IMG/VR virus record: IMGVR_UViG_3300047284_000529
Location: 1-45,814 of that record
Direction: 5' to 3' (one strand)
DNA length: 45,814 nucleotides
Origin: a virus
Both the position numbers and the translations under genes were made by a program. Positions 5,674-40,987 of the stretch are shown here, piece by piece. The first letter of the stretch is position 1. Each line of letters starts with the position of its first letter. The notes below the pieces were generated by a model. The model was not told the origin of the DNA, ran no database searches, and saw only the letters and a program-made list of their open reading frames with translations.

Positions 5674-5681
5674 TATTTATA
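5674..5681 (-). promoter_or_regulatory. T4-type late promoter (TATAAATA)
   Basis: The minus strand reads TATAAATA, an exact match to the T4 late promoter -10 box. It lies 38 bases upstream of the fibre ATG at 5635 and overlaps the stop of the preceding oxygenase gene. T4-like phages recognise this box with the gp55 sigma factor and sliding clamp. The exact match and placement support the call, but such an AT-only octamer also arises by chance in this genome. Confidence 0.7.
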
Positions 5682-6195
5682 TTGATAAAATATCCTTAAG
5701 TGAGGGTATCTCATATGGATGAGACTGAAAAACTAAACTAAATCTTCCTGGAGCTGGGCAAGATGATACAGGAGGTCTTGCTGAATGTAATATATTTGAT
5801 TGGAATTTAATTATCCGACCAGGAATTGGATTAATTGATCTTATAATATTTCCACTATCTGCAAATACTGTCTCACCTCCCCAATTAATATCCCAGTGGG
5901 TATTAAGATATATTAATATGGTTATACCTTCATCACCATTAGAATCAACATGAAATTTAGGTGAATCGCCATGCCTGAAAAAATTATATATGCACTTTTT
6001 ATAAGAGCCATCAATATAATTTAAAAATTTCAATGCTAATGGTTCAAACTCTTCTGAGTCGAAGACTTTGCCGAAAGATGCATTTGTATTGTCTCTAATA
6101 TTATCAATCAATAAATCCCAAGAATATCTTAAGAAATAAGCTTCAGCTTCCTCTATTAAAGAATATGGTATTATGTTGTCGTATATTTCAATCAT
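5677..6195 (-). CDS. 2-oxoglutarate/Fe(II)-dependent oxygenase (prolyl-4-hydroxylase-like)
   Basis: The 172-residue product carries the marks of the 2OG-Fe(II) dioxygenase fold: H82-x-D84 (KFHVDSNGDEG), the WGGETVF segment at 105-111, a distal iron ligand H137 (NILHSARPP) and R151 (PGRFSLVF) as the likely 2-oxoglutarate carboxylate ligand. Enzymes of this family hydroxylate proteins, small molecules or nucleic acids. Such genes are common in marine T4-like phages, where the substrates are mostly unknown. It sits directly behind a strong terminator and before the fibre gene, among virion genes, so modification of a structural protein is one guess. Another is a host metabolic role. The ATG at 6195 has no visible Shine-Dalgarno sequence because the terminator hairpin occupies that stretch. 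All key residues are present, so it is probably active. Confidence 0.85.
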   Translation of the reverse strand: MIEIYDNIIPYSLIEEAEAYFLRYSWDLLIDNIRDNTNASFGKVFDSEEFEPLALKFLNYIDGSYKKCIYNFFRHGDSPKFHVDSNGDEGITILIYLNTHWDINWGGETVFADSGNIIRSINPIPGRIIKFQSNILHSARPPVSSCPAPGRFSLVFQSHPYEIPSLKDILSI

Positions 6196-13890: not shown

Positions 13891-15426
13891 TTAGAACTCG
13901 ACTACAATTTTGATGTCTTCAATCTGATCGTTGGCGCGGGAAATCGCTCTTCTGTTATCTATATAGATAATCTGACCAGAGTTCTTTTTGATTTCTGGTT
14001 TAGCATAACCATTTGTAAAACTCATACCAAGGTCATATTCAGTGTTATTAATGACTCTTGTTGATGCTCCAGAAACAATTGGGAAGTTAATATCTGGATC
14101 TGCAGAAACACCAGAAGAAGAGCCAGTAATTGTGTTTCCTCCTTCAAATTCAATCAAGCTTCCAGTAATTTCTGGGAAAATACCATCAACCCTATCTTGA
14201 TAGTATTTCAATACTTTGGTTGTTGAATTCCAGCTTACAACTCTTCCTCTAGCTGTTACTGATTGACCACCAACAGTTCTTGACTGGGTAATAATTTCAT
14301 CTGTCTGGAAATTACCCGTAAATGATGGGGAGAAAATTACAGCTCTTGTTCCAGACAAAGTTAATTCTGTAGTCAACTCTTCAGTTCCATACTTAAGAGG
14401 ATTTAGAAGCAATCCGATTCTTCTATAATCATTATCTACAGGGAAATCTCCAGAACCTTCATCATATGTAAACTTAGTATTGATCATAATTCTATAACCA
14501 CCAAGCTCATCTACTGGATCTTCACCATGACCACCAGCAGGTGGAATCACAACGTTAATTTGAGCCCCCGAACCAGTTCCAGAACCAATACCATTAATTT
14601 CATCAATAATAATTTTTCCAAATGAGTAATTCGATCCACCAGAAGTAACAGTAGCACTTACAACTTTACCTCCGTCTACAACAATAGACACTCTTCCACC
14701 AATACCATCACCTTTAATGGGAACGTTTTCATATGTTCCATTATTGTAGCCAGATCCAGAAGATGTAATAACTACAGTATCAATTTCTCCTGCTGCAGCA
14801 TCAGATTGAACTGCACTGTCACTTAAAACAGGCATATAATCGCCAGAGAAGAATTTTAAAACTTGACCAACTGGAATAGTGTAAAGGTATTTCCATCTAT
14901 ATCCATCTGCTGTAGTAATGATAGATGTTGAAGTGCCAGTTGGTTCTACTGTAGATGGCTTTCCATTTGGATCTGAAGGTGATGTTCCGTTGTATATACA
15001 CTTATATACTTGATACGAAGAATTCACCACATAGAAATCCGCATCATATAGCTTTGTAGCACCAGAAGATGCTGTTTTCAGTGAAGAATAGTCATGGCTA
15101 TACATGTCATATACATAACCCAATCCTCCAGTTGTTTGCTCTGGTGGAATCCAGTCAATTCTTCTGACTACTGGAACCACATCATTAGCAAGAACTCTTT
15201 TCATAGAGATCAAATCATCATAAACGTCTGTAAATTCCTGAAAAGAATCTACAGGAGTTGGTGGGTTATTTTCATTATCCCAATCATATGGTCTACCAAT
15301 AAACACATATAGACGGTCACGATTTGTTCCCGCAGCAATATCGCTCTGAGTTTTATCAGATCCTTCAAGAGCTTTGATAAACTTTTTTGCGGTAAAAATT
15401 CTAAATTGGTCAGTTAATAATGCCAT
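13891..15426 (-). CDS. 8: Baseplate wedge protein, gp8-like
   Basis: The 511-residue product begins MALLTDQFRIFTAKKFIKAL, with RLYVFIGRPYDWD at ~39-50, YDADFYVVNSSYQVYKCIYN at ~127-146 and DGYRWKYLYTIP at 174-185. This is the signature of the protein annotated as baseplate wedge gp8 in T4-like cyanophages. T4 gp8 is 334 residues, so this version is extended. A glycine-rich insert (~residues 215-300, with SSGSGY and GSGTGSGAQI) resembles the repeats of its neighbours. The wedge protein would sit in the outer baseplate with gp6, gp7 and gp10. Its start follows a late promoter (15459-15466), so it can be transcribed independently of the genes upstream. I recognise the family from cyanophage proteins, not from T4 gp8 directly, so the symbol is probable and not certain. 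Confidence 0.7.
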   Translation of the reverse strand: MALLTDQFRIFTAKKFIKALEGSDKTQSDIAAGTNRDRLYVFIGRPYDWDNENNPPTPVDSFQEFTDVYDDLISMKRVLANDVVPVVRRIDWIPPEQTTGGLGYVYDMYSHDYSSLKTASSGATKLYDADFYVVNSSYQVYKCIYNGTSPSDPNGKPSTVEPTGTSTSIITTADGYRWKYLYTIPVGQVLKFFSGDYMPVLSDSAVQSDAAAGEIDTVVITSSGSGYNNGTYENVPIKGDGIGGRVSIVVDGGKVVSATVTSGGSNYSFGKIIIDEINGIGSGTGSGAQINVVIPPAGGHGEDPVDELGGYRIMINTKFTYDEGSGDFPVDNDYRRIGLLLNPLKYGTEELTTELTLSGTRAVIFSPSFTGNFQTDEIITQSRTVGGQSVTARGRVVSWNSTTKVLKYYQDRVDGIFPEITGSLIEFEGGNTITGSSSGVSADPDINFPIVSGASTRVINNTEYDLGMSFTNGYAKPEIKKNSGQIIYIDNRRAISRANDQIEDIKIVVEF

Positions 15427-17312: not shown

Positions 17313-18809
17313 TTATCTGATTGTAATGGTTCCGATCATTCCACTATGAATGGTGCATTGATATACAATGCTATTTGGAGCATCCATTGGAACAGTCCAG
17401 TATTGATAACCAGTTTGAGTGCCAGTTAATCCACCAGTATAGTCTACTCCACCGCTATTAACATCTGCAGTTCTTAGTGCAAATGGATGAGATGCTCCAG
17501 TCATATTATTGAAGATATAAGTAAAGCCTCTGTATACAATTAAAGTTGGATCATCAGTAGTGTTACTTAATCCAGGACCAGTAAATCTATATGCAGACTG
17601 CCCATTTGATGATATCGAATAGTATAAAACTGGGCTAGGAGCGTCTTCCCAATCTTGAAGATTTTTCCATAAAGAACTTCCTGTTGTTGGAGCAGAAAGA
17701 GTAACATCAGTTAATGTATCCAAGCTTGATATTACATCTCCACTATAACCAATTACTAGTCTTCCATTACTGTCTATATTTGTTGCAATACTTTGACCGC
17801 CAACAACAGATAAGCTAGAAGTTGCAGTTGTAGCAGCAATTGGTGTTCCAGTATCAGCTATAACTGAAGTGAATGTATTTTGAATTACATTTGGTGAACT
17901 ATTTGTAATAGTTAATGTTTTGCCACTAACAGCAGTTGTAATCCCAGTGCCACCATTGACTGTTAATGTGTCAGTAGTTGTAGTTGCACTAGTGCTTCCA
18001 GACTGACTACTTATTGTTTGGAATACATTTTGTGATAATGCAGCATTAATAGTTAATGTATCTCCAACAATTGATGTAGTAACTCCAGTTCCACCTCGAA
18101 CATTTAAAGTATCATTAATTGCAGATGCTGTTGTTGTTCCACTATCTGCTGTGATTGTCTCCCATAGATTTTGATTTATACCAGTTCCTTCACCAGTATT
18201 ATCATTTCCAGGGATCCATTTTCCCGACGTTGAGTTCCACTTTAAAACTTGACCATTAGCTGGAACAATAGATGTATCTACATCTGATAATTCATTTATT
18301 GAAGAATTTGTGTCTAGTAATTGTGTCCAATTGCCAGAATGCGCAAAATAGCTATGTGCAGTTCCATGAACATGGGCAAACATACCATGATGCTCTCCAG
18401 CATTTGGCAAATCAGAAATTGACTCATAAAAGCATGAATATTTCAGATTGCCATCTAATCCATCAATATAAACTTTCGCTTGTTCGCTACTACCTGTGTG
18501 TAATTTGATATCTCCAGAACCACCAGGCCTTAGCCTAATATCAGTATTTGTTGAAGAAGTTATCAATTTGCCATTAACATTCAAATCTGCACCAAGAGTA
18601 TCATAATGCCCTGGCGCAAATTGACTTCCATTCCATTTTAATACATGATATGCAGCTGCATTATCTGTATTAATTTGAATATTGCTACCGTCACCAATTA
18701 CATTATATAATTCATCAAATACAGTGTTGATTTTGATAGCACCGTCTCTAAGACTATCGCCAGTTCCATCATTAGCTATGCCGCCTATGTTTATATTTTG
18801 CTTTGCCAT
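17313..18809 (-). CDS. Fibre-like virion protein with C-terminal cupredoxin (type 1 copper) domain
   Basis: The 498-residue product starts MAKQNINIGGIANDGTGDSL, then GAIKINTVFDELYNVIGDG, an N-terminal pattern common in marine phage structural proteins. Residues ~190-370 hold repeated TITADSGTTTA/TLTVNGGTGITT beta units typical of phage fibres. Residues ~405-498 look like a single cupredoxin domain, with H441 (GASHPFAL) and then C485-x2-H488-x2-M491 (YQCTIHSGMIGTITI). This is the full His-Cys-His-Met type 1 copper set, and the C-x2-H-x2-M spacing is that of amicyanin. Copper binding or electron transfer is therefore possible, but the fold may serve only as a beta-sandwich adhesin. AAGG lies just before the ATG. 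Neighbours are all virion proteins, so it is probably part of the particle. No signal peptide is seen. Confidence 0.75.
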   Translation of the reverse strand: MAKQNINIGGIANDGTGDSLRDGAIKINTVFDELYNVIGDGSNIQINTDNAAAYHVLKWNGSQFAPGHYDTLGADLNVNGKLITSSTNTDIRLRPGGSGDIKLHTGSSEQAKVYIDGLDGNLKYSCFYESISDLPNAGEHHGMFAHVHGTAHSYFAHSGNWTQLLDTNSSINELSDVDTSIVPANGQVLKWNSTSGKWIPGNDNTGEGTGINQNLWETITADSGTTTASAINDTLNVRGGTGVTTSIVGDTLTINAALSQNVFQTISSQSGSTSATTTTDTLTVNGGTGITTAVSGKTLTITNSSPNVIQNTFTSVIADTGTPIAATTATSSLSVVGGQSIATNIDSNGRLVIGYSGDVISSLDTLTDVTLSAPTTGSSLWKNLQDWEDAPSPVLYYSISSNGQSAYRFTGPGLSNTTDDPTLIVYRGFTYIFNNMTGASHPFALRTADVNSGGVDYTGGLTGTQTGYQYWTVPMDAPNSIVYQCTIHSGMIGTITIR

Positions 18810-18827: not shown

Positions 18828-18835
18828 TATTTATT
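18828..18835 (-). promoter_or_regulatory. Possible late promoter (AATAAATA, one mismatch)
   Basis: The minus strand reads AATAAATA, one base from the T4 late box, in the short gap before the cupredoxin-protein ATG at 18809. It overlaps the stop of the upstream YHYH gene. A start about 6 bases downstream would leave a leader of only ~12 bases, so the call is tentative. Confidence 0.35.
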
Positions 18836-20418
18836 TAAGTTGCGTCGAAAGAAACGACAGTGGTATCTAGAGTAGTGTTAGTGTCATCAAATGTTGTTCC
18901 TGCACCTTGACCAATTCCAGTTACAGTTAGAACTGCAGCATTTGAAATTAATGGCGAATTTGTTGCCTGAGGGGTAATTCCAACAGGTCCTCTAACTTGA
19001 CATCTAAATCTATATCCTGTCATATAGGAAATAGTTGTCAGGGAATATGTAGAAGATGTTGCCCCATTAATATTTGACCAGGAGAATCCATTATCCGTTG
19101 ATCTTTGCCATTGATATGCTTTATTCCTGTCTTCGGGTTCAATTGCAGCTGCAATTGAAAATGTTGCAATTTCTCCAGAACTTGTAGTTACATTTTGTGG
19201 CTGTAACGTAATTACTATTGTAGAAGGACCAGAAACTGGAGGCTCTACTGGAGGCTCATCAGGATCAATTGGATTGGCGCCATTATTTAATGGTGCTTGA
19301 ATAGTTTCTCTAGTAGACAACCCAATAATAAAGGGAAATTTAGGAACATCTACATCTTCCGAATCGACAGTTATAAAGTATGCATAAGTTCCATTAGGAT
19401 ATTCTGGAGTTCTACAAAATCTTCCATTATGTGAATCCAAATCTCCAAGATTTACTAGATATTCCCAGTCTTGTATAAATGAACCATTCGGTATAGACTG
19501 ATAAGTTGGTCTACCAACAGTAAGGGTAGTTTTTAGGCGATATGATGAAACCATAGTTCTCACTTCAGATCTATTATTCCATGGTTCATCATAAGAATAA
19601 GGTCCGTATATTGGAAAGCCATCAAAAGATATACCCAAAACCTTACTATGACCATCTGGATGCCTTAGATAGTCATTATTATATTGACTAGAACCATAAT
19701 AATCATTATATGTTCTCATGGAATTTACTTGATTCCAACAAGAAATAAAGTTTCCATCGTCGTAATGATATTGCCCAGAATCATCTGGATTACCACCACA
19801 TAAATCTTCACCAAAAGAAAGATATGCAGAATCACCAGCAGCAACATAATTAAATCCTTGTGGTGGATTTCCCTCAATACCAGCAGAAGAATTGAAAAGT
19901 ATTACACCATTTGCAGATATTCCAATTGCACCCAAAGGCAGCAAATTGGATTGAGCTTCATCATAATACATGTATGTACCAGATGCAGTCTGATTATAGC
20001 TACAATTAAATGTTAATGTGGTATCTGTAGATAACCAAAATGTTCCAGGAGTAGATATACTTACTGTTCCATTATAACGATAAACTCTAGATACATTTGT
20101 ATTATAGAAATTAAAATATACCAAATCATTTACATTTATATCACTCAAATTATCATCATCTTGAAATTTAGGAAGATCTTGAGGATCAATTTGAATAGTT
20201 ATTGTAGTTCCAGTCTGAGACCAAGTATTAGATACAAAGGTTTTCCCAGTACCAAATGTTCCACCTCTATACAGAAATGCATGTGAAAAATTTTGAGCTA
20301 ATACTCTATTTTCGTTTTCTGTATTAGGAAATGTTCCATAAATTACTGGAGATGGCAATCCATCTCCAGTAACAGAAAGCTGGTTTGTGGATATATTTAA
20401 TGAAGCAGTGGCTGTCAT
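18835..20418 (-). CDS. YHYH-domain protein with C-terminal Ig-like domain
   Basis: Residues ~160-365 match the YHYH domain: GQYHYDDGNF at 215-224, HSKVLGISFDGFPIYGPYSY at 257-276, SSYRLK at 291-296, and GDLDSHNGRFCRTPEYPNGT at 325-344 followed by YAYFIT. The eponymous YHYH reads YHYD here. A proline-rich linker (DPDEPPVEPPVSGP, ~385-398) joins it to an Ig-like domain at ~399-499 with the YQWQRSTDNGFSW and YRFRCQV strands usual for surface Ig folds. The YHYH domain is found in bacteria and other organisms; its function is not well known. A closely similar YHYH domain and a related Ig domain occur in the giant protein upstream. The gene lies 12 bases after the giant gene and probably encodes a virion decoration or adhesin. 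No Shine-Dalgarno sequence is evident. Confidence 0.8.
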   Translation of the reverse strand: MTATASLNISTNQLSVTGDGLPSPVIYGTFPNTENENRVLAQNFSHAFLYRGGTFGTGKTFVSNTWSQTGTTITIQIDPQDLPKFQDDDNLSDINVNDLVYFNFYNTNVSRVYRYNGTVSISTPGTFWLSTDTTLTFNCSYNQTASGTYMYYDEAQSNLLPLGAIGISANGVILFNSSAGIEGNPPQGFNYVAAGDSAYLSFGEDLCGGNPDDSGQYHYDDGNFISCWNQVNSMRTYNDYYGSSQYNNDYLRHPDGHSKVLGISFDGFPIYGPYSYDEPWNNRSEVRTMVSSYRLKTTLTVGRPTYQSIPNGSFIQDWEYLVNLGDLDSHNGRFCRTPEYPNGTYAYFITVDSEDVDVPKFPFIIGLSTRETIQAPLNNGANPIDPDEPPVEPPVSGPSTIVITLQPQNVTTSSGEIATFSIAAAIEPEDRNKAYQWQRSTDNGFSWSNINGATSSTYSLTTISYMTGYRFRCQVRGPVGITPQATNSPLISNAAVLTVTGIGQGAGTTFDDTNTTLDTTVVSFDAT

Positions 20419-38508: not shown

Positions 38509-40572
38509 CTAGAAACAAGTATCAATTTCTGGATACTCAAATGTGGTAGTTGGAATATCAATGATATTTATACCTCCAGGCTGATAGTTAAATGCATCAA
38601 AATTATTTGGATCAAATACTGGAACCTTGAAATCAGTTAATGTATAGTCTACTGGAGTTATATTTGGATTGAATAATGTTGGATCGACATCTCTAGGAAT
38701 ATCAATTCCACCCCCACTTGGTAATACGACTACAGGCAGTCTTGGAGTTCCATCAGGAGTGCTTGTCACTTTAATAGGACCTACGCACACTTCACCTGTA
38801 GAATAATTAACCGAGCCTACATTTGAATTTAAAATGATCTCATTTTCATCTGATATAGTAGCTAAAACTAAATTCCCCTTGCCGTCATCTCTGACATAAA
38901 CTGGCAATTGAAATTGAGAATTGGCTACAACAAATTCTTGAGTTACATCAGAAGCTGATAGATTTACTAAACTATCGAAAGCTGCAGATGTGTAATCTTC
39001 GGAATAAAATATTCCACTTTTTACTGTAGAGAACTTAGGAGAACAGCTACCACCTGAATTAGAACCCGAAAAATCTCCAGCATTAACAATAGGATTATTA
39101 AAGTTGATGCATTGTGAGAATGTAGTATTGAAATCAAATTGATCTAAATTTTGACCGAGCCTAATTTGAACAGTGGTGCCATTAATAGATGTATCGACAT
39201 TATTGACAATTCCACTTAAAGTAGATGAGTCTAATCTTCCACCAAATCTATTGGTAGATTCATTTTCATTAAATGTGTTTAATGTGTCTAACGCTTTAGT
39301 TCTTAATCCAGAGTTGTCTAACGTTGTTTTATTACTATCAAAGAATGGATATACATTAGGTAGAATGTAGAAAGATCTAGGATCTATAATTTCAGTTTGG
39401 ATAGATGCGATTGCATATTTTTCCAAAGAGTTCTTAATTCTTTTTTTGGTGGTTTCGTTTAACTTAGTTCCACCTTTATTTCTAATTGAAATGAAAACTT
39501 TTCCATATACTGGAGGATTTAATTTTTCTCCTCCAAAAGCTCTAACCGAAACTGCCTGAGGATATATTTGTGATGTTATGTATTCGTAGTCTGCTTCTGT
39601 AACTGCTCTATTTTGAGTGGTAAATGCTCTTGGGGCTCTATATTTTATAGATTCAATGCTTTCTCTCTCTTCTCCATCCTGAGAGGCATCAATAGTTGCC
39701 ATAGACACAGAATTTGGTGCTATAGCTCTTCCTAGATTATCTGTAATTACGCCAATATAATTGAACTTTACACAACCATTTGCGCTTGCTCCTTCAGTTC
39801 TAACATATTTCAATTGGATTAATTCACCACTGATTAATTTTCTTCCAATAATACCATCACCAAAAATTACGTTATATCTAAGATCGTCAGTTTCTTCTAA
39901 GAAATAAATTCTGGATGTGCTATCTAATGTAGTAATATTGCTTGCGAGTGAATACTGGTCAGACTGTGTTGATTGAACGTTTGGGCTGATAATTACCTTC
40001 AATAATTCGGTATCAACATTTTCAGATGGTATTAAGTATAAAAATCTATTTGGATCTGTTACAACATAACTATACTCTAATAAGTTACCTTGATAAATTA
40101 CAACTTTTTCGAATGAAGCAATACCAGTTTGTTGATCAACGGTTGTAACAACGTCGTCTAATAATGCAAAGGTATATGTTCCAAAATTATTAGAACTTAT
40201 AAAAACATCTCCCTGCTTTATAGTAACGAAAGATGGATATCTATCACCATCTAGAGAAGTTTGAACATCAAAGCGCACACAAGCCTTTGGTGCTTTAATT
40301 GATTTAGGAGTATAGTTTAATTGCTTAGCAATTTTTACAATATTATCTCTAACTGAAGCGGTTTCTAAAAATGCTTCATTTAATGCCATATTTGCATTAA
40401 ATGCGAGATAATATGTATTATAAGATAAAATATCAAGTAAGTATGATGCTGCTGAACCGTCAAAATCATAATCTGTGAATTCTTCTCTAGTTCTGAGATA
40501 AGAACGAATCGATTCCTTGATTTCAAAGAAATCAATTGCAGTTAAATTTGATGGAACCGAGACTTGTGCCAT
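38509..40572 (-). CDS. 6: Baseplate wedge protein gp6
   Basis: The 687-residue product matches gp6 of T4-like phages (T4 gp6 is 660 residues). Conserved stretches include DFFEIKESIRSYLRTREEF (~14-32), DILSYNTYYLAFNANMALNE (47-66) running into AFLETA, and FGDGIIGRKLISGE (237-250). The last is the segment shared with baseplate J-type proteins. gp6 dimers link the wedges into the ring that surrounds the hub and changes shape during sheath contraction. It follows gp25 with one base between stop and ATG and precedes the giant gene by 12 bases, the usual wedge order. The C-terminal ~80 residues are Pro/Asp/Asn-rich. Translation is likely coupled to gp25. Confidence 0.93.
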   Translation of the reverse strand: MAQVSVPSNLTAIDFFEIKESIRSYLRTREEFTDYDFDGSAASYLLDILSYNTYYLAFNANMALNEAFLETASVRDNIVKIAKQLNYTPKSIKAPKACVRFDVQTSLDGDRYPSFVTIKQGDVFISSNNFGTYTFALLDDVVTTVDQQTGIASFEKVVIYQGNLLEYSYVVTDPNRFLYLIPSENVDTELLKVIISPNVQSTQSDQYSLASNITTLDSTSRIYFLEETDDLRYNVIFGDGIIGRKLISGELIQLKYVRTEGASANGCVKFNYIGVITDNLGRAIAPNSVSMATIDASQDGEERESIESIKYRAPRAFTTQNRAVTEADYEYITSQIYPQAVSVRAFGGEKLNPPVYGKVFISIRNKGGTKLNETTKKRIKNSLEKYAIASIQTEIIDPRSFYILPNVYPFFDSNKTTLDNSGLRTKALDTLNTFNENESTNRFGGRLDSSTLSGIVNNVDTSINGTTVQIRLGQNLDQFDFNTTFSQCINFNNPIVNAGDFSGSNSGGSCSPKFSTVKSGIFYSEDYTSAAFDSLVNLSASDVTQEFVVANSQFQLPVYVRDDGKGNLVLATISDENEIILNSNVGSVNYSTGEVCVGPIKVTSTPDGTPRLPVVVLPSGGGIDIPRDVDPTLFNPNITPVDYTLTDFKVPVFDPNNFDAFNYQPGGINIIDIPTTTFEYPEIDTCF
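38565..38572 (-). promoter_or_regulatory. Possible late promoter (TATAAATA) inside the end of gp6
   Basis: An exact TATAAATA on the minus strand lies in the last codons of gp6, 69 bases upstream of the giant gene's ATG at 38496. It could give the giant gene its own late transcript. It also encodes part of GGINIIDIP, so it may be a chance match in AT-rich coding DNA. Confidence 0.4.
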
Positions 40573-40573
40573 T

Positions 40574-40987
40574 TTATGTTCTTTCTAGTAGGAATTCTAC
40601 AGTTTGGATAATTGATTGACCGACAATAGTGTAATCAATTTCAACATTTAATTCATTATTATCTTCAGCAGAATAGATCCTAACATCTTGTAATTGAACT
40701 CTAGGTTCTAATCTTTGAACTGTATTATATATTTCCTCTTTAATATCTTCTTCTAAAAATGCATCATATGGCTCAAACAAAAGACCAGCTAATTTGGATC
40801 CAATTTCTGGCTGGAAGGGTCTTTCTCCTAAACTAGTCAACAACAGATTTCTAATAGATTGCTTTATTGAATTTTCATTTTTAACCGTACCAAAATCATT
40901 AGTAGCTGGATTTTGTGAAAATGATATCGATAGATCTCGAAATCCCCTACTTGTAAATTTTTCTGATCGGAATCTATATGATGCCAT
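40574..40987 (-). CDS. 25: Baseplate wedge protein gp25
   Basis: The 137-residue product belongs to the gp25/TssE family (T4 gp25 is 132 residues). It has TSLGERPFQPEIGSKL at 51-66 and the EPR motif at 94-96 (RLEPRVQLQDVRI), both hallmarks of the family. gp25 is the sheath-initiating wedge subunit that binds gp6 and gp53 and connects the baseplate to the first sheath ring. The ATG follows directly after the TAA of the 67-residue gene. It is in an operon with gp6 downstream, as in T4-like phages, and lies ~265 bases downstream of a late promoter (41251-41258). Confidence 0.95.
   Translation of the reverse strand: MASYRFRSEKFTSRGFRDLSISFSQNPATNDFGTVKNENSIKQSIRNLLLTSLGERPFQPEIGSKLAGLLFEPYDAFLEEDIKEEIYNTVQRLEPRVQLQDVRIYSAEDNNELNVEIDYTIVGQSIIQTVEFLLERT

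Follow-up and report, generated by a model that had tools for sequence, protein, structure and literature searches.

A predicted cupredoxin-fold domain with a type 1-like copper ligand set at the C-terminus of a gp9-like baseplate protein of a marine cyanophage

Introduction

Cyanophages encode plastocyanin (petE), a type 1 copper protein. A reading frame of 498 codons in the virus record IMGVR_UViG_3300047284_000529 of IMG/VR raised the question of whether a protein of the virus particle may itself end in a copper site. The whole stretch of DNA that was analysed, 45,814 nucleotides in length, is called the window below. A preliminary description of the window proposed that a fibre-like virion protein ends in a cupredoxin domain with a complete type 1 copper ligand set. 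Here we ask which virion protein this is, whether its last domain has the fold and the ligands of a cupredoxin, how these ligands have been kept among homologues, and what the site might do for the phage.

Results

The reading frame encodes a gp9-like baseplate protein

The N-terminal domain of the protein belongs to the T4 gp9/gp10 family: PF07880 (T4_gp9_10_N) matches residues 3-72 above its cut-off (E 5.7e-11, 43.2 bits against 25). The family PHROG 677, annotated as baseplate wedge tail fiber protein connector, covers the whole protein with an E value of 2.3e-135. Genes for gp25-, gp6- and gp8-like proteins belong to the same wedge cluster (Table 1), and the gene order around the reading frame is common to the gp9 regions of S-SZBM1, P-TIM40 and S-WAM1. 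The window is therefore part of the genome of a T4-like marine cyanophage, from which its host is inferred.

The top database match of the protein was SSZBM1_206, the gp9 of S-SZBM1, with 48% identity. LC-MS of CsCl-purified S-SZBM1 virions detected 9 peptides of this homologue, covering 24.9% of its sequence (PMC9146016). This homologue in virions supports the structural role that had been proposed for the protein, but it is not a generic fibre, because PF07880 and PHROG 677 both point to a gp9-like connector. AlphaFold2 performed poorly on the full-length protein (pLDDT 53).

Other genes of this region were also annotated. Directly upstream of gp9, a gene encodes a protein with a YHYH domain, which other work predicted to be a zinc-dependent hydrolase (PMC7824862), and a YHYH-like segment was also visible by eye in the next reading frame. 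The latter, a single frame of 6021 codons within the baseplate cluster, is rich in repeated SGYTSPP-like units; its syntenic counterpart in S-SZBM1 has a similar size and is annotated as baseplate wedge initiator. A 2OG-Fe(II) oxygenase-like protein is encoded next to structural genes.

Table 1. Features of the window, with strand and the basis of each assignment
Feature	Position	Strand	Basis
gp9-like baseplate wedge / tail-fibre connector, 498 aa	17313..18809	(-)	ORF, PF07880, PHROG 677, synteny
C-terminal cupredoxin-type domain, residues 392-498 (~107)	17313-17636	(-)	AlphaFold2, Foldseek, profile vs PDB
H441 codon, predicted N-terminal His ligand	17487..17489	(-)	sequence; invariant in three homologue alignments
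C485 codon, predicted Cys ligand	17355..17357	(-)	100% conserved in clustered homologues
H488 codon, predicted C-terminal His ligand	17346..17348	(-)	100% conserved in clustered homologues
M491 codon, predicted axial Met ligand	17337..17339	(-)	97-99% conserved at 60-90% clustering
gp25-like wedge gene	40574-40987		same wedge cluster as gp9-like ORF
gp6-like wedge gene	38509-40572		same wedge cluster as gp9-like ORF
gp8-like wedge gene	13891-15426		same wedge cluster as gp9-like ORF
YHYH-domain protein gene	18835-20418	(-)	PF14240, E 6.9e-36
Long repeat-rich ORF, 6021 aa	20431-38496	(-)	ORF
2OG-Fe(II) oxygenase-like protein gene	5677-6195	(-)	PF13640, E 1.1e-9

The C-terminal domain is predicted to have a cupredoxin fold

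The domain was modelled separately from the rest of the protein. With 30 window and viral-contig sequences as input, AlphaFold2 predicted residues 388-498 to form a beta-sandwich with a mean pLDDT of 93.1 and a pTM of 0.84. The domain had been placed earlier at positions 17313-17600, corresponding to residues 404-498; this location was right, but the domain starts slightly earlier, at about residue 392.

When the model was compared with the PDB by Foldseek, 71 matches were found at E<=1e-3, and among the best 50 of these 71, which are the matches listed, all 50 have the cupredoxin fold. The E values of these 50 ranged from 1e-5 to 7e-4, with TM scores of only 0.40-0.60 and high rmsd. They included copper nitrite reductase (CuNIR), rusticyanin, amicyanin, plastocyanin and pseudoazurin, as well as laccases and other multicopper oxidases, AcoP, a CuA/amicyanin chimera and factor VIII. 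The cupredoxin fold that had been expected from the letters was thus recovered by structure prediction.

Independently predicted structures of cyanophage homologues in BFVD agreed with our model with TM scores up to 0.91, and no copper-protein name was found on any of the named BFVD models of cyanophage homologues that match the domain. Two BFVD entries from relatives of Pithovirus and Marseillevirus, A0A481Z6J5 and A0A481YWX9, which are named 'Beta-sandwich proteins', also matched the model structurally with E values of about 1e-6.

Sequence similarity to cupredoxins rests mainly on the C-terminal motif

A single-sequence phmmer search of the PDB returned only auracyanin and plastocyanin, with E values of 0.3-0.4. 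A profile built from 18 diverse homologues matched 50 PDB sequences at E<=1, and 49 of them have the cupredoxin fold, the exception being an antibody chain. The top matches were copper nitrite reductase (1.2e-4), plastocyanin (5.5e-4) and amicyanin (2e-3), the E values for these three kinds of protein ranging from 1.2e-4 to 1e-2, and the best matches were aligned through the His and the CxxHxxM motif. The profile search that the preliminary description had suggested as a check thus led to cupredoxin families. After the last strand and CxxHxxM were removed, the profile gave no significant match in the PDB, which indicates that the sequence homology to cupredoxins rests mainly on this C-terminal motif.

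The window domain did not reach the cut-off of PF00127 (14.4 bits against 21.2, E 0.051), so by sequence it is not a member of that family as defined. Similarity to PF00127 was seen in 8 of the 18 homologues, with a best E value of 0.0014. The domain was not recognised by NCBIfam profiles, and no second match to a cupredoxin profile was found within the 45,814 nucleotides. A misannotated viral nirK was also considered, as CuNIR was the top profile match, and was rejected: the published viral nirK encodes a complete enzyme that closely resembles bacterial NirK (PMC8115048).

The four predicted ligands are in the order of a type 1 copper site

The motif HPFAL begins at residue 441 and YQCTIHSGM at residue 483, which places C485, H488 and M491 exactly where they had been numbered, together with H441. 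C485 is the sole cysteine of the domain. In the model, H441 (H54 in model numbering) lies just before the strand 56-59, C485 (C98) ends the penultimate predicted strand 93-98, and H488 and M491 (H101 and M104) are in the loop before the strand 105-110. The predicted topology of the ligands is canonical for a type 1 copper site. Homologues with the set likewise follow the canonical order of His, Cys and His plus an axial residue, Met or Gln. A point against the copper reading is the Pro that follows H441, a position at which Asn is usual in classical cupredoxins. By its predicted fold together with this ligand set, we assign the domain to the cupredoxin superfamily.

The ligands are kept together or lost together

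The ligands were invariant in homologue alignments reaching down to 31-35% identity. In an extended set clustered at 60-90% identity, C485 and H488 were conserved in all members, M491 in 97-99% and H441 in 91-94%, the last value reflecting ligand-less copies of a neighbouring protein. The ligand columns were among the most conserved of the about 104 columns of the alignment. The claim of a complete His-Cys-His-Met set with the C-x2-H-x2-M spacing of amicyanin therefore holds well beyond the window.

Of 254 distinct complete copies, 203 kept all four ligands (202 with Met and one with Gln). Two of these 203, recognised by eye, have Phe in place of Tyr two residues before the Cys, and their first His is in GHP. 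The change from Met to Gln was the sole axial replacement seen; axial Gln also occurs naturally, for example in stellacyanin. The other 51 copies lacked the Cys, His and Met together, with an occasional stray His near the site. A partial set of Cys, His and Met was found in none of the 254. The ligands had been suggested to co-vary if they form a site, and no loss one by one was observed. Such an all-or-none pattern across the sequences is what a metal site predicts.

The 51 ligand-less copies, however, apparently represent one orthologous slot, located in a long protein whose gene neighbours gp9 in S-SSM5-like phages, and they probably go back to a single evolutionary event. The long protein is SSSM5_096, of which only the first ~828 residues were within the loci examined. 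The profile nonetheless matches these copies, which suggests that the cupredoxin-like fold persists without the metal, and that the site is kept elsewhere by selection. Its retention outside this slot speaks for selection on metal binding as such, whether for stability, contact geometry or redox.

In loci L026, L029, L071 and similar ones, tandem cupredoxin-like copies were seen in the long reading frame after gp9, and one of these tandem copies had lost Cys, His and Met together but kept the family signature. In other cyanophages (loci L018, L020 and L023), a cupredoxin-like copy was seemingly inserted inside the YHYH-like domain of the protein next to gp9.

The four residues could also have been kept for folding or for a use other than copper, such as binding of zinc or iron, packing, or a disulphide that joins subunits through C485, with the site normally free of copper. 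The weak sequence homology outside the motif and the small amount of free copper in the cytoplasm, where assembly occurs, would fit this explanation. A disulphide, however, would account for C485 only, and packing explains neither why Cys, His and Met are missing together from copies that keep the domain nor why Met-to-Gln is the only axial change, whereas Cys, His, His and Met in this topology are the type 1 copper set. We therefore regard a copper-free role as quite improbable.

The domain occurs in several unrelated virion proteins

In a tblastn search, the domain was found in 332 phage records, of which 329 are named as Synechococcus, Prochlorococcus or cyano-phages and three as marine viruses. 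The full 498-aa protein had matches in 844 records; those of enterobacterial T4-like phages did not reappear in the domain search. Most copies of the domain form the C-terminus of gp9.

Other contexts were found as well, each with the four ligands. The domain lies near the N-terminus of a protein of the podovirus P-SCSP2, in tail fibres of two SAR11 phages, in a virion protein of S-TIM5 encoded near the portal gene, and in a tail spike of P-SSM2. In locus L187 (4578-6986, (+) strand), it is inserted in a subtilase (PF00082)-like protein; in BFVD, S8 peptidases of phages ACG-2014e and ACG-2014h were also seen with a matching fold. Outside phages, the domain with its ligands was found in a 149-aa protein of Bdellovibrionales and in a CHRD-containing protein of Flavobacterium, both with a lipoprotein-like N-terminus by eye. 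Four other genome matches resemble phage tail proteins in metagenome bins. Because the module is present in several unrelated virion proteins and in putative bacterial lipoproteins, we conclude from these sequence comparisons that the cupredoxin-type module behaves as a mobile domain.

This distribution bears on whether the site serves electron transfer. A redox-active blue-copper carrier or sensor might exchange electrons with the host surface or the environment and so trigger or gate adsorption, for example in a light-dependent manner. It would agree with the complete type 1 ligand set including the axial Met, with a distribution centred on phages of photosynthetic hosts, and with the light-dependent adsorption reported for cyanophages (Jia et al. 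2010, as cited in PMC7112961). The module is, however, also present in SAR11 phages and putative bacterial lipoproteins and is thus untied to photosynthesis. Neither a partner protein nor a path for electrons was identified, and the plug-in use of the module across many structural proteins suggests a structural or adhesive role. We consider a redox function unlikely.

Discussion

We propose that the C-terminal domain of gp9 is a cupredoxin-fold domain whose mononuclear type 1-like copper site is intact and which serves as a metal-stabilised contact module, with a probability of roughly 0.6. Stability and contact are ranked first because the structural proteins that contain the module are unrelated to one another, and so are the hosts concerned. 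The gp9-like protein would be made in the host cytoplasm and then assembled into the baseplate. Copper might be taken up at baseplate assembly or, more likely, after lysis, since free copper is very scarce in the cytoplasm. Metallation would then stiffen the domain, which may contact the tail fibre, neighbouring baseplate proteins or the host envelope. The same module recurs as a plug-in in several virion proteins of marine phages that are otherwise unrelated. Such a contact module would not need electron transfer. Because nearly all related cyanophages keep these four residues, their particles probably contain copper. With six gp9 trimers, the number in T4, there would be about 18 sites per particle.

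Copper might instead be a cargo, either recognised by a metal-uptake receptor of the host in analogy to the Ferrojan model, or held by virions acting as a dissolved copper ligand of seawater. For iron, tail fibres that carry the metal have been documented or predicted (HxH motifs; T4 gp37; PMC11705849), and gp9-type proteins link the tail fibre to the baseplate. Against this, no copper receptor on hosts emerged from our analysis, and binding a receptor is not usually the task of gp9. Type 1 sites also let go of copper slowly, and we hold a carrier role to be the least probable of the explanations considered here.

A more far-reaching version of the contact module is that most T4-like marine cyanophages bear type 1 copper sites on the baseplate, loaded at or after lysis, and that adsorption or contraction is switched by the redox state or loading of the copper, during maturation or on sensing the host. 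This version is speculative and seems to us very doubtful.

In the open-access literature, we found no relevant paper on cupredoxin, plastocyanin-like or blue copper proteins in a cyanophage or a virion, and neither the annotation libraries searched nor any named viral structure entry labels the domain as cupredoxin. Cupredoxins have been known as secreted electron carriers and as domains of enzymes; no open-access paper that we found describes such a domain, with its copper site intact, as a recurrent building block of virions. Should copper be bound, the particles of a whole abundant class of marine viruses would carry the metal, with a bearing on phage attachment, particle stability and the copper chemistry of seawater. 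Phages for direct testing are already in culture, namely S-SZBM1, S-SSM5 and S-RIM8.

Comparison with known systems

The domain is like amicyanin and plastocyanin (PF00127) in its predicted fold class, in the order His...Cys-x2-His-x2-Met with amicyanin spacing, and in consisting of one domain of ~105 aa. It differs from them in falling below the Pfam cut-off, in having HP and not HN at the first His, and in being fused to a virion protein instead of being a free secreted protein. The best profile and structural matches were domains of copper nitrite reductase and multicopper oxidases, with which the CxxHxxM copper loop is in common, whereas the window protein has a single cupredoxin domain without type 2 or trinuclear sites or an enzyme context.

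With T4 gp9, the protein shares the PF07880 N-terminal domain and a place among wedge genes for gp25-, gp6- and gp8-like proteins, but the C-terminal cupredoxin-type domain was found only in marine phage records in the tblastn search of phage records. The iron-binding HxH tips of tail fibres, such as those like T4 gp37, have in common the idea of a metal on a phage tail protein (PMC11705849), but the fold, the ligands and the metal are different, copper being predicted here. Finally, the plastocyanin of cyanophages is likewise a type 1 copper protein encoded by these phages, but petE is a free-standing auxiliary metabolic gene whose product does not belong to the virion, whereas the domain described here lies within a virion protein.
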